From an uncultured Bacteroidota bacterium (GTDB lineage Bacteria; Bacteroidota; Bacteroidia; Flavobacteriales; Flavobacteriaceae): 11,592 nucleotides of DNA. This document shows, in pieces, positions 1,769 through 10,402 of this stretch. A program made the position numbers and the translations under genes. A model generated the notes under the pieces. It had not been told where the DNA came from, did not search any database, and saw only the letters and a list, made by a program, of their open reading frames with translations. How positions within the stretch are numbered: position 1 is the stretch's first letter; each line of letters begins with the position of its first letter. Where the stretch lies: NCBI GenBank assembly GCA_903837025.1, contig CAILTC010000386.1, positions 1 to 11,592 of the forward strand. The letters are read 5' to 3'.

Positions 1769-4660
1769 ATGGATTTTCATCAACTTTTACAAAAACAGAT
1801 CAAAAAACATTTGACAATTGATTGTGTCGAAGATCCTTCTATTAAGGCGTTTATTCAATCTGTGAATGAATCGTATTTGAATTTTGAAAGTGACATAAAT
1901 AATTCATATATCGAACCCAATAAAGAGGAATTAAGTGACAATAATTCAATAATAAAAGAGTCTGTAGATCAACCACTACAAACCGTAGAATTATTTGGAA
2001 ATTTAATAGACAATCTACAATCGGGGATTTTATTAGAAAGTGAGAATCGAAAACTGGTGTTTTCTAATCAACTATTTTGGGATTTTTTTAATGTAAATAC
2101 GACTCCCCTAGAAATGGCGGGAATGAATTGTGACGAATCCATAGAAAAGAATAAGTTACATTTTAAATATCCTAAAGATTATATTGATCGATATTATAAA
2201 ATATTAAGTCTTAGGCAAACTGTTACGGGCGAAGTAATAGAAACAGCAGACAATCGTTTTCTGGAGAGAGATTATATTCCCATTTATATTGACAATAAAT
2301 ATATAGGTCATTTTTGGAAATTTTCTGATGTTACTATAAAAACACAAAGTATAAAATTATTAGAGCAAAGTCTGGAGCATAACCGCTTAGTGATGAACTC
2401 CTCGCTCAATTCGATTATTACTGTTGATAATGATAAGCAAATAACTTTTTGGAATCAACGGGCAGAAACAGACTTCCATTGGAAAAGAGAAGAAGTACTT
2501 GGGAAAAACATCATCAATTTATTAATCCCATTGCGCTATAGAAAGTTGTGGAATCATTTAATTTATAAATATCAAAACAGTGATAAAAATAACTATATAA
2601 ATAAGCACCAAGAAATAATTTTACTCAACAAAGCTGGAAACGAATTTTATAGTGAAATTTCTATAATTCCTATTAATCAATCCGGAAAGACCTATTTCAG
2701 TGTCTTCATTCAAGATATTACCAAAAGGAAAGAAGCGGAAAAAAGTCATAAAATTCAGGAAACAAAATACCAGAATATTATCAGCAATATGAATCTCGGA
2801 TTGCTTGAGGTAGATAATAACCAAAACATTCAATATGCAAATCAAAGTTTTGCGGACATGTCTGGGTTTGAAATAAAGGAGCTTATTGGAAAGAATCCTT
2901 CTGAAATTTTTGTTTTTGGAGAAAATTTAGAGATAATTAATTCTAAAAATAATCTTAGAGCGGCAGGTGATTCTGATTTTTATCAAATATCGATCAAGAA
3001 TAAAAAAGGAGAGTTAAAATGGTGGGCAATAAGTGGAGCACCAAATTATGATAATAACGGAAATTTAACCGGCTCAATAGGAATACATCTTGATATTACC
3101 AAGCAAAAACAATTAGAAATTGACCTCGAAATTGAAAAAACAAATGCCATAGCATCTTCAAAAGCCAAAGAAATATTCTTGGCAAACATGAGTCACGAAA
3201 TTAGAACACCACTCAATGCTATTATTGGATTTTTAAGAGAATTAGACAAACAAGAACTAACAGAAATTCAAAAAAAATACATTAGTAATAGCAACATTGC
3301 TTCGAAACATTTATTAGCCATTATTAATGATATTTTAGATATATCAAAAATAGAAGCAGGCGAAATGTCATTAGAAAATGAAGATTTTATCTTTGAAAAA
3401 TCTATTTCAAATGTTACAACCGTTCTACTGCCTATGCTAGAGCAAAAAGGATTAGGATTTAAAGCCACCATTTCAAATGAAATAGAAAAGATTTTAAAAG
3501 GGGATACACTACGACTGCAACAAATTTTATTTAACCTTATTGGTAATTCCATAAAATTCACTAATAAAGGACGTATTGCTATAGACTGTGAAGTCGTAAC
3601 TAAAAATCCTTTTTCGCAAGAAATACGAATCTCAGTAGCTGATACTGGAATAGGAATGGAAAGCAGTTTTATTGATACTATATTTAATAAATTTTCTCAA
3701 GAAGATTTAGCGATTACTCGGAAATATGGAGGTACAGGCTTAGGGTTAACAATTACCAAGGAGCTTGTTAAGTTGATGAATGGAAGGATTGAGATTGAAA
3801 GCAAAAAAAATGAAGGTACAATTATCCGTTTGTATATCAATTTTCAAAAGGGTAGCATACAAAGCATAGGAAACTTAAATATCGAAAATTTATCTACAAG
3901 AATAGATAATATTTCTATTCTTTTGGTTGAAGACAATTATTTAAACCGAATGATAGCTCAAAACACTTTACAATATTATAACTGCAAAGTTACCGAAGCC
4001 GAAAACGGTAAAGAAGCATTAGAAATCTTGAAAAACGAAAAGTTTGATATCATACTCATGGATGTACAAATGCCTCAAATGGGTGGTATCGAAGCAACCG
4101 AAATTATTAGAAAAGAACTTCAACTTTCGACTCCAATTATTGCATTTACAGCAAACGCATTAAAAACAGAAATTGATAAATGTAAAAAAGCTGGAATGAA
4201 TGATTATGTGACAAAACCTTTTGATGAAGATGTTTTTATAGAAACAATTGCAAAACATACCTTAAACAAAAAATCGTTAATTCCTAATTCAGTAGCAAAA
4301 CAAACATTTTCAAGTCAAAAACTATATAATTTAGCCTCCTTGAATAAATTAAGCAGAGGAAATAATGAATTTGTGATAAAAATGATAAACATTTTTGTAG
4401 AACAAACAGCAGATACGATCGAAAAATCTGCAACAGCAATTAATCTGAATAACTTTGTTGAAGCAAGCCAATTAATCCATAAAATAAAACCTAGTACAGA
4501 AAGTTTGGGAATAACTACCCTGATCAAACAAATTACACTTCTTGAAAAATTAACAAAAGAAACATCCGATAAAGAACAAATTTTAGCTCTTTTTAATCCT
4601 ATAAAAGATATTTTAGAACAAGTAATTATTCAACTTAAAGAGAATGAACTTAATGCATAA
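1769..4660 (+). CDS. Soluble hybrid histidine kinase (PAS x3-HisKA-HATPase-REC-HPt)
   Basis: This 963-residue multi-domain sensor kinase has no signal peptide and no transmembrane segment, so it probably senses a cytoplasmic or ligand-bound cue. After an unassigned N-terminus (1-70) come three PAS-like domains at about 75-195, 200-320 and 333-445; the last two end in the usual D-I-T-K-x-K. The HisKA H-box is ANMSHEIRTPLNAI with phosphorylated H476. The HATPase_c domain carries the N-box near N593, then DTGIGM and GGTGLGLTI. A receiver at about 715-830 has E721-D722, phosphoacceptor D765 and K816. A C-terminal HPt domain has H904 within HKIKPSTESLG. An internal H-D-H chain fits a phosphorelay whose final Asp is D54 of the upstream activator or D57 of the downstream receiver (inference). 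An in-frame TGA at 1754-1756 rules out a longer start. The 81-bp gap after the activator gene shows no terminator, so the two genes are probably co-transcribed. Confidence 0.95.
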   Translation: MDFHQLLQKQIKKHLTIDCVEDPSIKAFIQSVNESYLNFESDINNSYIEPNKEELSDNNSIIKESVDQPLQTVELFGNLIDNLQSGILLESENRKLVFSNQLFWDFFNVNTTPLEMAGMNCDESIEKNKLHFKYPKDYIDRYYKILSLRQTVTGEVIETADNRFLERDYIPIYIDNKYIGHFWKFSDVTIKTQSIKLLEQSLEHNRLVMNSSLNSIITVDNDKQITFWNQRAETDFHWKREEVLGKNIINLLIPLRYRKLWNHLIYKYQNSDKNNYINKHQEIILLNKAGNEFYSEISIIPINQSGKTYFSVFIQDITKRKEAEKSHKIQETKYQNIISNMNLGLLEVDNNQNIQYANQSFADMSGFEIKELIGKNPSEIFVFGENLEIINSKNNLRAAGDSDFYQISIKNKKGELKWWAISGAPNYDNNGNLTGSIGIHLDITKQKQLEIDLEIEKTNAIASSKAKEIFLANMSHEIRTPLNAIIGFLRELDKQELTEIQKKYISNSNIASKHLLAIINDILDISKIEAGEMSLENEDFIFEKSISNVTTVLLPMLEQKGLGFKATISNEIEKILKGDTLRLQQILFNLIGNSIKFTNKGRIAIDCEVVTKNPFSQEIRISVADTGIGMESSFIDTIFNKFSQEDLAITRKYGGTGLGLTITKELVKLMNGRIEIESKKNEGTIIRLYINFQKGSIQSIGNLNIENLSTRIDNISILLVEDNYLNRMIAQNTLQYYNCKVTEAENGKEALEILKNEKFDIILMDVQMPQMGGIEATEIIRKELQLSTPIIAFTANALKTEIDKCKKAGMNDYVTKPFDEDVFIETIAKHTLNKKSLIPNSVAKQTFSSQKLYNLASLNKLSRGNNEFVIKMINIFVEQTADTIEKSATAINLNNFVEASQLIHKIKPSTESLGITTLIKQITLLEKLTKETSDKEQILALFNPIKDILEQVIIQLKENELNA

Positions 4661-4691: not shown

Positions 4692-4710
4692 ATTTTCCAA
4701 ATTACGGAAT
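4692..4710. promoter_or_regulatory. Probable enhancer (UAS) dyad for the sigma-54 activator, copy 1
   Basis: ATTTTCCAAATTACGGAAT contains the dyad TTCC-N7-GGAA (4695-4709, centre 4702). It matches the second copy at 5500-5518 in 16 of 19 positions. Its centre lies 63 bp upstream of the -24 GG at 4765, about -88 from the predicted start of transcription, the usual distance for an NtrC-type binding site. Binding by the activator encoded at 338-1687 is inferred from proximity and arrangement, not demonstrated. Confidence 0.6.
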
Positions 4711-4762
4711 AATAAAGTACCTATAAAGTATGTAGTTACCTACAAATAAGCAAGATACAATT

Positions 4763-4778
4763 TTGGCTTGACTTTGGC
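4763..4778 (+). promoter_or_regulatory. Sigma-54 (-24/-12) promoter of the single-domain receiver gene
   Basis: TTGGCTTGACTTTGGC fits the sigma-54 pattern TGGCAC-N5-TTGC well. The GG (4765-4766) and GC (4777-4778) are separated by exactly 10 bases, and the -12 tetramer is TGGC against consensus TTGC. Transcription would start near 4790, giving a leader of about 13 nt before the ATG at 4803. A sigma-54 activator gene lies just upstream, and a dyad is correctly placed upstream of the promoter. Confidence 0.65.
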
Positions 4779-4802
4779 TTTCCATGTGTAAAATATATTA
4801 TT

Positions 4803-5243
4803 ATGGAAAAACGAACTCAATTCAAGTTTTTTATTGTAGACGACGATTTTTTTTGCGCAAGCATGTATGAACAGTTTTTAACTAGTATGGGATACAGCAA
4901 TATAACCTATTATAATAATGGTATTGATTGTTTGAAAAACCTAGATGAGCAACCAGATATTATTTTTTTAGATCATATTATGGATGACATAACGGGATTT
5001 GAAGTTTTAAAAAAAATAAAAAGTTATAACCCGAACATATATGTTATTATGGTTTCAGGCCAAGAAACTATTAAAACTGCCGTTGATGCGCTAAAATATG
5101 GCGCTTTTGACTATATAATTAAAGACAACGCAGTTTGTGACAAGATGGGGATTATCATCAATAAAATTATTTTGATAAAAGAAGAACATAATAAATTAGA
5201 TCAAAATTTTATTCAAAAATTGCTTTTTTTCTTTAAATTTTAA
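4803..5243 (+). CDS. Single-domain response regulator (stand-alone REC)
   Basis: This 146-residue protein is a CheY-like receiver without an output domain. It has D13-D14-D15 in the acidic pocket, phosphoacceptor D57, S85 and K107, and then a short lysine- and phenylalanine-rich tail (about 125-146) with no recognisable fold. It resembles the receiver of the activator at 338: both read DCL or ECL, then PDIIxLD, then DITG, VSGQE or ISGQE, and DYIxK at matching positions, so the two are probably paralogues. Stand-alone receivers commonly act as phosphorelay intermediates, phosphate sinks or protein-protein switches. Next to a kinase with an HPt domain, a sink or shuttle role is plausible (inference). 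The gene has its own candidate sigma-54 promoter, which suggests that it is induced by the system it belongs to. Confidence 0.93.
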   Translation: MEKRTQFKFFIVDDDFFCASMYEQFLTSMGYSNITYYNNGIDCLKNLDEQPDIIFLDHIMDDITGFEVLKKIKSYNPNIYVIMVSGQETIKTAVDALKYGAFDYIIKDNAVCDKMGIIINKIILIKEEHNKLDQNFIQKLLFFFKF

Positions 5244-5250
5244 AGAAAAA
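5226..5250. terminator. AT-only inverted repeat over the 3' end of the receiver gene
   Basis: TTTTTCTTTAAA (5226-5237) and TTTAAAGAAAAA (5239-5250) are perfect 12-bp inverted arms around one T, overlapping the stop codon at 5241-5243. The stem is nearly all A-U, with no G+C-rich base and no separate U-tract, so termination is only a possibility. The last residues of the protein (LLFFFKF) are encoded by the left arm. Confidence 0.35.
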
Positions 5251-5290
5251 TGAATTACAAATCAGTTTTTATTGTAAGATTCTAATTCAT
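5250..5290. repeat. Inverted repeat following the receiver gene
   Basis: ATGAATTACAA (5250-5260) and TTCTAATTCAT (5280-5290) are inverted arms of 11 bp with one mismatch, separated by a 19-base loop. This could be a 3' hairpin of the receiver transcript. A T-rich run (about 5305-5313) lies some 15 bp further on. Its function is not established. Confidence 0.3.
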
Positions 5291-5499
5291 AATCTCCTCC
5301 GCCATTTTTTTAAATATCACTTTTTTCTCTGCGATTAAACACTTCTATTACCCTTTTTTTAAGGTCATAATTCTGTAACAATAATGCGTTCTGCTATTTA
5401 GTTTTTATAGATGTCAAGTACATGCGGCAGCGTTAGTTCAATAAATTCAGAACAGAAAAGACCAAATCTTCAATTACAAAGTTATTCCATAAATTAATA
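5291..5499. other. Non-coding part of the long intergenic region
   Basis: This is AT-rich DNA between the hairpins after the receiver gene and the second regulatory dyad. The only short ORF is a 28-codon frame at 5411-5497, which lacks any promoter or spacing support. A TTCC half-site at 5485-5488 sits 18 bp before the TTCC of the dyad at 5503. A comparable TTCC at 4676-4679 sits 19 bp before the first dyad, perhaps a weaker second binding position. I see no RNA gene or riboswitch. Confidence 0.4.
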
Positions 5500-5518
5500 A
5501 TTTTCCAAAATTTGGAAT
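5500..5518. promoter_or_regulatory. Probable enhancer (UAS) dyad, copy 2
   Basis: ATTTTCCAAAATTTGGAAT contains TTCCAAA-A-TTTGGAA (5503-5517), a perfect 15-bp dyad centred on 5510. It is 16 of 19 identical to the copy at 4692-4710. Its centre is again exactly 63 bp from the GG (5573) of a TTGGCA box. This is the better of the two dyads and the likely operator for the small-ORF and acyltransferase operon. Confidence 0.6.
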
Positions 5519-5570
5519 TTTAATCATTTTTCGCATCATTTAAATTACTGTTAGTTAGTGGTTTGTGTAT

Positions 5571-5586
5571 TTGGCATATTATGTGA
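5571..5586 (+). promoter_or_regulatory. Candidate sigma-54 promoter with a weak -12 element
   Basis: TTGGCATATTATGTGA has a strong -24 half (TTGGCAT) but a poor -12 half (GTGA instead of TTGC; only the conserved -13 G and one T fit). On sequence alone it would not be called. It is reported because its distance from the dyad (63 bp) and to the following ATG (40 bp from GG, against 38 bp for the first copy) repeats the arrangement before the receiver gene. Transcription would start near 5598. Confidence 0.4.
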
Positions 5587-5612
5587 AAAGTAACGAATAG
5601 AAATATTTTGCA

Positions 5613-5702
5613 ATGAAAAATATTTTTACCAAAACAGCTTTTCCCAATCTTGTTGACAATGCTACCATCATTTTAAAAAAAAACGTAGCAAAACTTAAAT
5701 AG
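5613..5702 (+). CDS. Small ORF 1, possible 29-residue micro-protein
   Basis: This frame runs from ATG to TAG and encodes 29 residues, beginning MKNIFTKTAF and ending in the lysine-rich NVAKLK. It is basic, has a mildly amphipathic middle (NLVDNATIIL), and shows no signal peptide, no cysteines and no known domain. I do not recognise it. Support is positional. It starts about 15 nt after the predicted sigma-54 transcription start, as the receiver gene does after its own (13 nt), and it is followed after 6 bp by small ORF 2 and then by the acyltransferase. It could instead be a leader peptide, an RiPP-like or secreted peptide, or chance. Confidence 0.4.
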   Translation: MKNIFTKTAFPNLVDNATIILKKNVAKLK

Positions 5703-5708
5703 ATCATT

Positions 5709-5807
5709 ATGGTTTATTTGAAACGATTCGGTCTAAGATTAAAGTCCAATTTATCAGTCAATAAAATTGATACAGAACAAACGCCAAACAAAGGCATAAA
5801 ATCATAA
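5709..5807 (+). CDS. Small ORF 2, possible 32-residue micro-protein
   Basis: This frame runs from ATG to TAA and encodes 32 residues. A basic N-terminal half (MVYLKRFGLRLKSN) is followed by a polar tail (TEQTPNKGIKS). It shows no hydrophobic membrane span and no family I know. The gaps of 6 bp to small ORF 1 and 10 bp to the acyltransferase start give a tandem, operon-like packing with ATG starts throughout. This is the main argument for it being translated, or at least for the leader being arranged for translation through to the acyltransferase. Confidence 0.35.
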   Translation: MVYLKRFGLRLKSNLSVNKIDTEQTPNKGIKS

Positions 5808-5817
5808 TAGAGAAGTT

Positions 5818-6555
5818 ATGCAAAACGGAATCATGAAAATAATTCAACAACAAGATAGCAATTCTAAATGGGATGCAACACTGAATGTAACTGCTTTATT
5901 TGAGTTTGTTTTTATTCAAATAAGTTCTTTTATCCGTGGTTTTAGAGTTGTTTTCTACTTTAGAAAACCAAATGGAATGATGCTAGGAAAAGAGGTTTCT
6001 TTTTTTAATATGTCTAAAATAAAATGGGGAAAATGCCTGCGCTTAGGGAATCAGGTCTCTATTTCGGCTTTGGGCAAAAACGGAATTCATTTTGGAGATA
6101 ATGTAAGTATCGGAGCCTTTAGTAGAGTAGTTGTATCTACTTCTCTTAACAATGTAGGTAATAAAATTGTGATCGGAAACAATGTAGGCATTGGCGAATT
6201 TGCTTATTTAGACGGAACTGGTGATATAGAAATTGGAGACGAATGTACCGTTGGGCACCATTTGAGTTGTAATCCTGAAAACACCAATTATGGTAATTTA
6301 GAAACTCAAATTAATCATCAAAGTGTTTCTAGAAAAGGGATAACGATTGGTAAAAATTGCAGTATAGGTAGTAAAGTTACCATACTAGACGGAGTAAATA
6401 TTGGTTATGGCAGTTCTGTTGCCGAGGGAAGTTTAGTCACAAAATCATTTTCAGAAAACAGTGTTATTGGTGGAGTTCCTGCCAAACTTTTGAAAAAAAG
6501 GAAAAATGATCTCCAGAAATATTTCAGTAATTTGTTATCCTGCAAGCCCATATAA
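5818..6555 (+). CDS. Left-handed beta-helix (hexapeptide) acyltransferase
   Basis: This 245-residue protein belongs to the LbH O-acetyltransferase superfamily. Hexapeptide-type repeats ([LIV]-G-x4) run from about residue 60 to 215, for example IKWGKC, IHFGDN, VSIGAF, IVIGNN, VGIGEF, IEIGDE, ITIGKN, CSIGSK and VNIGYG. The C-terminus carries the typical V-I-G-G-V-P-A-K closing motif (about 218-225). H146 and H147 in TVGHHLS are candidate catalytic histidines. Family members transfer acetyl or other acyl groups from acyl-CoA to sugars in polysaccharide, LPS or capsule synthesis; the acceptor here is unknown. The first 60 residues hold a hydrophobic patch (ALFEFVFIQISSFI) but no clear membrane span. 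ATG 5818 was chosen because it lies 10 bp after small ORF 2; ATG 5833 is an alternative. The genes upstream suggest that it is the main output of the sigma-54 system. It converges with the minus-strand operon 51 bp downstream. Confidence 0.9.
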   Translation: MQNGIMKIIQQQDSNSKWDATLNVTALFEFVFIQISSFIRGFRVVFYFRKPNGMMLGKEVSFFNMSKIKWGKCLRLGNQVSISALGKNGIHFGDNVSIGAFSRVVVSTSLNNVGNKIVIGNNVGIGEFAYLDGTGDIEIGDECTVGHHLSCNPENTNYGNLETQINHQSVSRKGITIGKNCSIGSKVTILDGVNIGYGSSVAEGSLVTKSFSENSVIGGVPAKLLKKRKNDLQKYFSNLLSCKPI

Positions 6556-9454: not shown

Positions 9455-10402
9455 ATGATTTCAATTCCTCACAAAGCTAAACAATTCCTTGTACTTCTGA
9501 TCAAACTTTTGATTGTTGGTGGTTCCTTTTATTTTATTTACAACCAACTGGCACATAACGACAAACTCGATTGGGAGAAATTCCTCATTCTCTACAAAAA
9601 AAATCAGTCGGTTATGGGAATCGGTTTTATTTTGTTGTTGAGCGTTTTAAATCGGTTATTCGAAATTTTGAAATGGCAGAATCTAGTTTCCTGCTTTCAT
9701 AAAATCACGCTTCAAGAATCTACAAAACAGGTTCTTGGCGCCTTAACCGCAGGATTATTTACACCAAATGGCATTGGAGAATATGCTGGAAAAGCTTTGT
9801 TTTTCGAAAAGTCAAAAGCAAAAAAAATCGTATTTCTAAATTTAATTTGCAATGGAATCCAGATGATTTTGACTACTATTTTCGGAACCATTGGGTTATG
9901 GATTTTGGGTTATGGATTTTGGGCTTTGTATGTTTTAGGAATAGCTATTTCCTTTTTTCTTTTTTCTTTTCTCTTCAGAAAAATAAAAATCAAAGGCTAT
10001 TCTATCGAAAAAATGATTCGTAAGATTAATGAAATCCCGAAAGCGATTCATCAAAAAAATATATTTTTGGCTGTTTGTCGCTATTTGATTTTCTCCCATC
10101 AATACTATTTTTTGTTTTTGGCTTTTGATGTCCATTTGTCTTATTTAACAATGATGGCTGCAATTGCCAGTGTTTATTTTCTGGCATCTGCATTGCCTAC
10201 ATTCCAGTTTTTAGATTTCGCTGTAAAAGGAAGTATTGCTGTTTATTTCTTAGGAATTCTTGGAGTAAACGAATGGATTGTTGTTTTTATAAGTACCTTA
10301 ATGTGGTTTTTGAATGTCGTTTTGCCAGTTATTATTGGTAGTTATTTTGTCATGAATTACAAAATGCTAAGCCCGACAATTTCCGAAGTCGGTAAAGCTT
10401 AA
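9455..10402 (+). CDS. Flippase-like / lysylphosphatidylglycerol synthase TM-region protein
   Basis: This 315-residue polytopic inner-membrane protein resembles the UPF0104/AglD-like family, often named lysylphosphatidylglycerol synthase transmembrane region. About seven or eight hydrophobic segments can be seen, near 9-29, 52-71, 127-150, 152-174, 203-224, 229-250 and 257-299 (probably two). The family signature is visible in [19 protein letters not shown] (about 98-116) and in a second conserved segment, [19 protein letters not shown]. There is no catalytic MprF domain, so lysyl transfer is not expected. Members are thought to move or support lipid-linked intermediates, and the following glycosyltransferase gene (15-bp gap) fits glycolipid or glycan assembly (inference). 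ATG 9455 lies 23 bp from the preferred ruvC start, leaving little room for a separate promoter. Confidence 0.88.
9472..9479 (-). promoter_or_regulatory. Candidate Bacteroidota-type -7 box for the ruvC operon
   Basis: On the minus strand this reads TAGCTTTG, a perfect match to the Bacteroidota housekeeping -7 consensus TAnnTTTG. A TTTG that could act as the -33 element lies at 9502-9505, with a 22-bp spacer, near the long end of the accepted range. Transcription would start around 9465, leaving a leader of about 35 nt before TTG 9431 and almost none before TTG 9464. The box sits inside the first codons of the divergent membrane-protein gene. Confidence 0.4.

Follow-up and report, generated by a model that had tools for sequence, protein, structure and literature searches.

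Candidate sigma-54 enhancer dyads in a flavobacterial exopolysaccharide cluster and their probable remnant in an uncultured Bacteroidota bacterium

Introduction

Two nearly identical dyads, each placed at the same distance before a box that resembles a sigma-54 -24 element, raise the question of which regulator and which genes they serve. They are found in a stretch of 11,592 nucleotides from an uncultured Bacteroidota bacterium (contig C386), and this whole stretch is referred to as the window. The initial annotation had proposed a candidate operator and a two-promoter local regulon of a nearby sigma-54 activator. Comparison with related genomes upheld a conserved regulon but not the number of promoters, which is three in relatives, within an exopolysaccharide (EPS) cluster. 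Accordingly, the dyads are very probably enhancers of the local sigma-54 activator that would drive EPS transcription units, and the pair in the window would be largely a vestigial remnant.

Results

Gene content of the window

The genome that holds the window is 89% complete in 665 contigs and has a sigma-54 gene (rpoN; PF04552, E 1.9e-51). A sigma-54 response-regulator activator (bEBP) is encoded at 338-1687 on the + strand, and its receiver, AAA+ domain with a GAFTGA loop and sigma-54 interaction function are those of an NtrC-type protein. Pfam assigned Response_reg (2.8e-20), Sigma54_activat (4e-70) and AAA_lid_14 (1.8e-17), and GHEAGAFTGA and GETGTGKE were spotted by eye in the translation. 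The C-terminal piece, taken as a Fis-like HTH, had HTH_8 as its top match (E 5.4e-4) with 20.1 bits, under the Pfam gathering cut-off of 22. Among named relatives, the activator was 87% identical to that of Flavobacterium omnivorum (L011), 87% to that of a Flavobacteriaceae MAG (L010) and 69% to that of Chryseobacterium takakiae (L012).

The next gene (1769-4660, + strand) encodes a hybrid histidine kinase of 963 codons with PAS, HisKA, HATPase and receiver domains in Pfam and an Hpt domain under the cut-off. This kinase is presumed to be the partner of the activator, and the same activator-then-kinase order was found in relatives. It also lies between the activator gene and the first dyad, so that the activator does not directly precede the first module as had been annotated. 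The first gene after that module encodes a stand-alone receiver-domain protein (4803-5243, + strand; Response_reg 1.3e-22), which retains the phosphorylatable Asp (FLDHI). The second gene after the second module is an open frame for a hexapeptide acyltransferase of the EPS cluster (5818-6555, + strand; Hexapep 1.7e-8). On its 3' side, YjbR, DUF4260 and GNAT genes follow on the opposite strand, then HemW-like and RuvC-like genes whose names were assigned by eye, and a Flavo-1 RNA (RF01705; 11529-11592, + strand, 54.1 bits) runs off the contig end.

Twin modules

The 19-mers at 4692-4710 and 5500-5518 are identical at 16 of 19 positions, and the centres of their symmetric 15-mers (4702 and 5510) both lie 63 bp before a GG (4765 and 5573). 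The following ATG stands 38 bp after the GG in the first module (M1) and 40 bp after it in the second (M2). All of these measurements agreed with the initial annotation. The enhancer-like dyads themselves, TTCCAAATTACGGAA in M1 (4695-4709) and TTCCAAAATTTGGAA in M2 (5503-5517), have the form TTCC-N7-GGAA.

The annotated pair of -24 boxes was borne out in part: TTGGC is present in both modules, but a full -24/-12 arrangement only in the first. The M1 box, TTGGCTTGACTTTGGCT (4763-4779, + strand), is a sigma-54-type promoter sequence with GG-N10-GC. The second box, TTGGCATATTATGTGA, reads GG-N10-GA and offers the -24 half only; thus, the M2 promoter (5571-5587, + strand) has the -24 element TTGGCATA and no canonical -12. 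A reversed reading of the second box, with TTGGCATA as -12 and TGG at 5559-5561 as -24, was dropped because the spacing was two bases too long; the M2 boxes of relatives, which hold TTGGCACG or TTGGCATA at the -24 place, also spoke against it. When the window, L261 and L172 were scanned for known RNA families, no match fell on the modules.

Conservation of the M1 module

Activator orthologues were collected at E <= 1e-110 from 398 genomes of the genus, and 26 genomes, including the one studied here, were positive. Six further activators, 46-66% identical, were added from other genera of the family. The M1 module was then surveyed in 29 loci with an identified receiver gene, namely, 25 of the 26 genus genomes (G632 excluded) and L011, L012, L172 and L173. 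The initial annotation had made its reading depend on conservation of the dyads beside orthologues of the activator, and they are conserved: in a free scan, 26 of 29 loci showed, 5' of the receiver gene, a dyad with at most one mismatch 62-65 bp before the -24 GG. The spacing was 62 bp in 6 of these loci, 63 bp in 14, 64 bp in 5 and 65 bp in 1, and the half-sites were perfect in 21 and had one mismatch in 5. In L159, L163 and L165, the mismatched dyad stands at 63 bp and a perfect one at 82 bp, which is 19 bp further up. The exceptions were L012 (Chryseobacterium) with 53 bp, L172 with 82 bp and L173, in which the scan before the receiver gene turned up no promoter.

Additional sites were common in M1 loci. 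A pair of dyads offset by 19 bp, neither with more than one mismatch, was present in 5 of 29 loci, and an extra TGGA or GGAA half-site was found about 20 bp before the matching dyad half in 13 of 17 M1 sequences (the window not among them). In L172, between the kinase end at 9735 and the receiver at 10367, two dyads with promoter-like boxes were observed; the first precedes an open frame of 25 codons, read by eye (MKKFIQNFLEILEELGAAAAHALRT).

The G of the -12 box carried 2.8 bits in the 17 M1 sequences, compared with averages of 0.45 bits 5' of the -24 box and 0.43 bits in the spacer, and M1-related boxes had G at -12 in nearly all relatives. The spacer DNA of the modules was weakly conserved (0.27-0.43 bits). 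Selection of the sequences had required a perfect dyad with a GG 60-65 bp away, which in part explains the high bits at the half-sites and the GG; of these values, the -12 and spacer bits alone were used as evidence, and the evidence for spacing is that of the free scan.

The EPS cluster in relatives

The usual gene order in relatives is activator, a protein of ~380 residues, hybrid kinase, receiver and an EPS cluster. The ~380-residue protein was FIST by Pfam in the single one tested (L150), and its sole NCBIfam match was the NO sensor NosP, at 51.8 bits against a cut-off of 450; the protein is missing from several loci, e.g. L011, L154, L160 and L162. The EPS cluster starts with Poly_export/SLBB (Wza-like), Wzz/GNVR (Wzc-like), flippase-like, glycosyltransferase and Wzy_C genes, continues with a gene for a ~790-residue protein with a weak thymidylate-kinase match, a hexapeptide acyltransferase and two glycosyltransferases, and then has genes for a DUF1972 glycosyltransferase and a PF00953 transferase. 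Names were given by Pfam on L012, L150 and L253 and by BLAST similarity or position at other loci. A Wzx/Wzy-type cluster is characterized by an uninterrupted series of Poly_export, Wzz/GNVR, Wzy_C and glycosyltransferase genes, and such a series was present in relatives (by Pfam in L012 and L253, by BLAST similarity at other loci); the flippase-like proteins had no match in Pfam. In several relatives, YjbR closes the cluster.

In clusters covered far enough, the dyad was found at three places: M1 precedes the receiver gene, M2 the thymidylate-kinase-like gene and M3 the DUF1972 glycosyltransferase gene. M2 had a perfect dyad in all 16 relatives examined (18 possess the thymidylate-kinase-like gene). 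With the window included, the distance from the M2 dyad to GG was 62-65 bp in 16 of 17 cases and 60 bp in the remaining one. M3 had a perfect dyad in 11 of 13 loci and one mismatch in 2; its -24-like box was at 62-65 bp in 9 of 13 and at 53 bp in 2, whose -12-like box was at 64 bp, and the last 2 of 13 went unscored by the pattern. The core boxes were unequal. M1 has both, M2 has a strong -24 (TTGGCACG or TTGGCATA) and lacks a canonical -12 in nearly all relatives, and M3 has a strong -12 (e.g. TTTGGCATA) with a weak -24 (e.g. AGCACG) in 9 of 13 loci.

The acyltransferase lies directly 3' of the thymidylate-kinase-like gene in relatives. Among 199 genomes, it had 12 relatives at 53-69% identity, all in activator-positive genomes, and the other matches were at most 40% identical.

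Association of the dyad pattern with the activator

A combined pattern, consisting of an AT-rich dyad, 50-58 bp and TGGY-N7-TRG, was scanned over the 398 genus genomes. Of the 26 activator-positive genomes 19 matched, compared with 13 of the 372 activator-negative ones, which makes 32 in all (Fisher p 1.4e-18, a value that overstates the evidence because species are not independent), and a reversed control pattern matched 1 of 398. The association of dyad and activator claimed in the initial annotation was thereby substantiated. In 18 of the 19 activator-positive genomes the match was the M1 module, and in two of them M3 was matched as well; the remaining match, in G632, is on a separate contig, not beside the activator and with no gene downstream. 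Four of the activator-negative matches had near-identical sequence and may represent a conserved coding stretch. A looser dyad pattern was present in 20 of the 26 genomes with the activator, against two matches of its reversed control; its extra matches, and those outside the EPS locus, mostly had GC-richer cores.

G632, in which neither a Wzc-like nor a thymidylate-kinase-like gene was found, showed a peculiarity of its own. Its M1-like module (L261 ~1714-2358 (L193), minus strand) faces about 560 bases without a listed ORF of more than 80 codons. This stretch has a stem, CTGGCAGCAAC...GTTGCCAG, with a fold z-score of -2.1; 3 of 100 shuffles were as stable, and there was no Rfam match. The arrangement may represent a small RNA transcribed with sigma-54, or else a promoter that has lost its gene.

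A perfect dyad was also located within 400 bp 5' of the activator gene in 4 of 34 activator loci (33 distinct). In these four (L152, L153, L173 and L174), the called start of the activator follows it by 56-143 bp, which suggests that the activator may be autoregulated in some species.

Loss of the cluster in the window

The distance between M1 and M2 is 808 bp in the window compared with ~7 kb in intact relatives. Missing from the window are the genes between the receiver and M2, the larger part of the thymidylate-kinase-like gene and all that relatives have from the following glycosyltransferase through M3; YjbR comes next after the acyltransferase. The FIST-type gene is also missing, and only a gap of 81 bp separates activator and kinase. 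Thus, the twins stand close together in the window, on a locus that has decayed.

After M2, at 5613-5807 (+ strand), a stop-interrupted remnant of the thymidylate-kinase-like gene was located, which corresponds to the C-terminal ~70 codons of a gene of ~790 codons in relatives. It was accepted on an anchored global comparison with the gene's end: aligned with the last 210 bases of the genes of 14 relatives, 5641-5807 scored 18.5, compared with 5.5 for the best of 200 shuffles and 1.0 for the best of 29 interior windows. As a free local DNA match, the gene end was within shuffles (37 against a best shuffle of 38), and a DNA search with the whole gene was above them (37 against 34 in 30 shuffles). 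The remnant probably also holds the first ~7 codons of the gene, as 19 of 21 bases from 5613 agree with the start that the gene of a relative has at this position behind M2; the same start as a free local match was within shuffles (32 against 37). The remnant was unlisted when a thymidylate-kinase-like profile was run over the window's 586 stop-to-stop pieces, and two short ORFs after M2, compared as proteins, scored 38, which was within shuffles (best 44 and 43). These ORFs were rejected as new small genes because the remnant lies there.

Neither a Wzc-like nor a thymidylate-kinase-like gene was found elsewhere in the same genome, an absence that is uncertain because of its completeness and fragmentation. 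Among the 26 activator-positive genomes, the Wzc-like gene was found in 17 and the thymidylate-kinase-like gene in 18. Most of the EPS cluster is thus apparently gone from this genome, which has kept two of the switches and their controller.

Fate of the receiver after target loss

The Wzc-like gene was not found in 9 of the 26 activator-positive genomes, and 8 of these 9 retained the receiver gene and M1, with G632 as the exception. The ratio of receiver to activator divergence averaged 1.75 in these 8 genomes and 1.44 in the 17 with the Wzc-like gene (Mann-Whitney p 1.5e-4, from simple distances for pairs of species that are not independent). L011 had first been grouped as EPS-positive (p 1.2e-4; ratio 1.94), and its row was then dropped; the other rows include distances to L011. 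L163 and L165, two of the genomes without a found Wzc-like gene, have Tyr at the position of the receiver's phosphorylatable Asp. The faster divergence of the receiver in genomes without the Wzc-like gene indicates that its function is tied to the EPS genes, and it suggests that the receiver may undergo slow decay once these are lost.

Discussion

Proposed mechanism

In the proposed mechanism, the hybrid kinase, together with the FIST sensor in most relatives, would phosphorylate the activator, and the phosphorylated activator would bind TTCC-N7-GGAA. A DNA loop of about six helical turns would then bring the activator ATPase to the sigma-54 polymerase at -24/-12. The alternatives of 53 and 63 bp, the shorter being that of two M3 copies and the Chryseobacterium M1, are one helical turn apart and fit a looping contact on the same helix face. 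In intact relatives, with operon limits that are likewise predicted, the M1 unit would comprise the receiver, Wza-like, Wzc-like, flippase-like, glycosyltransferase and Wzy genes, the M2 unit the thymidylate-kinase-like protein, acyltransferase and glycosyltransferases, and the M3 unit the DUF1972 glycosyltransferase and PF00953 sugar transferase, their joint product being a putative EPS. After deletion of most of the cluster, the activator, the kinase, M1 with the receiver and M2 with the acyltransferase are what is left in the window.

Alternative explanations

Considered alone, the dyads of the window are only mildly unusual in their rarity: two TTCC-N7-GGAA sites were observed against 0.32 expected from shuffles, and two were reached in 7 of 200 shuffles. 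It is conservation in relatives, not the dyad count, that places the twin modules above chance. Each module has its own counterparts in many genomes, M1 with the receiver and M2 with the thymidylate-kinase-like gene, and the two are distinct promoters, ~7 kb apart in relatives, with different DNA between their elements, which agrees with the annotated view that the arrangement is no simple duplication. Chance or local duplication therefore retains practically no probability, and we regard it as already refuted by this conservation. The dyad could instead be the operator of another, unlinked regulator, e.g. a repressor, with the nearby activator being incidental. M2, which lacks a canonical -12 and so may use another polymerase form, would suit such a regulator, as would the combined pattern in 13 activator-free genomes; nevertheless, the pattern tracks the activator gene over 398 genomes, the distance from dyad to -24 is kept and the spacer sequence is not, as is expected of an enhancer, and four loci have the dyad before the activator gene itself. 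An unlinked regulator is accordingly considered quite improbable.

A different issue is whether the pair in the window still works as a two-promoter regulon with a new role. The frames of activator, kinase, receiver and acyltransferase are all open, the receiver and M1 were kept in nearly all genomes without a found Wzc-like gene, and the divergence of the window activator is nothing out of the ordinary (mean distance 0.190 compared with 0.173-0.287 in others). Against this stand the broken first gene after M2, the faster divergence of the receiver relative to the activator where the Wzc-like gene was not found, and the loss of the phosphorylatable Asp in 2 of 8 such genomes. A regulon with a new role is thus rather unlikely, and a largely vestigial EPS switch remains the preferred reading of the window.

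Comparison with known systems

The closest known kind, by analogy, is the PrsK/PrsR PEP-CTERM regulon of Proteobacteria (Haft et al. 2006, PMC1569441). According to the available part of that report, a 17-nt activator motif, a spacer averaging 62.8 nt (SD 10.6, range 32-92) and a -24/-12 motif lie upstream of the regulated PEP-CTERM genes, and the site has the same genome distribution as the regulator. Both systems have an NtrC-type response regulator and a kinase near EPS genes, comparable spacing and a site distribution that follows the regulator over genomes (PMC1569441). However, motif 1 of PrsK/PrsR ends in TTTACA whereas the motif here is TTCC-N7-GGAA, and the sites here directly precede EPS synthesis genes whereas the PrsK/PrsR targets are PEP-CTERM genes (PMC1569441). 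The activator, at 360.1 bits, did not reach the cut-off of 502.6 of the PrsR equivalog TIGR02915, and no PrsK model was among the matches listed for the hybrid PAS kinase (25 of 153 families). L253 proteins remained below the XrtA-type cut-offs (TIGR03007, 78.5 against 278.85; TIGR03027, 78.7 against 180), and exosortase/PEP-CTERM families did not show among the matches of the 17 relatives' proteins scanned (Pfam 16, NCBIfam 6). Because of these scores, the system is described as PrsR-like in its working, and no membership is assigned.

Sigma-54 control of EPS or PEP-CTERM traits is already a known kind, as far as the available parts of the sources tell (PMC9850573, PMC9040800, PMC12316311). 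In Vibrio vulnificus, the sigma-54 activator DctD2 turns on EPS clusters with RpoN-dependent starts, a similar pairing of activator and EPS clusters, but the organism is a gammaproteobacterium and dicarboxylic acids are the inducer (PMC9040800). A PEP-CTERM gene tied to floc formation was reported under RpoN-dependent control (PMC9850573), and sigma-54 sites were predicted at polysaccharide export and glycosyltransferase genes in Myxococcia in a survey whose available text leaves EPS in Flavobacteriia unmentioned (PMC12316311). Motif SM4 of Flavobacterium psychrophilum, a species of the same genus as L011, the nearest named relative, marks mapped -24/-12 promoters in a genome with three sigma-54-interaction proteins, and the targets named are protein-quality-control, envelope-stress, gliding and exported-protein genes (PMC9723704). 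It resembles the present case in its -24/-12 promoters and differs in that the available text mentions no enhancer motif and no EPS cluster under SM4 (PMC9723704). A literature search of titles and abstract openings, with subscription journals mostly outside it, returned no paper on the present regulon, and no enhancer motif for Bacteroidota was found in the accessible portions of the compared literature.

Implications

The regularity of the modules invites a further, tentative and somewhat doubtful idea, namely, that the rigid geometry (~63 or 53 bp) with core boxes unequal by design might grade or time EPS production, with the receiver acting as a feedback valve on the phosphorelay. If this were true, core-box strength at a fixed looping distance would set the EPS level or its order in time, and the stand-alone receiver would be the first product of M1, its role as a valve explaining why it decays once the EPS genes are lost.

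As predicted from sequence comparison, the operator, the promoters and the targets of a Bacteroidota sigma-54 activator can be named concretely for this locus, which would extend the pairing of sigma-54 activators with exopolysaccharide synthesis to flavobacteria. Why an enhancer would require a constant spacing can be tested directly in this system. Moreover, the nine activator-positive genomes without a found Wzc-like gene offer a natural series in which the decay of a regulon after the loss of its targets may be followed.
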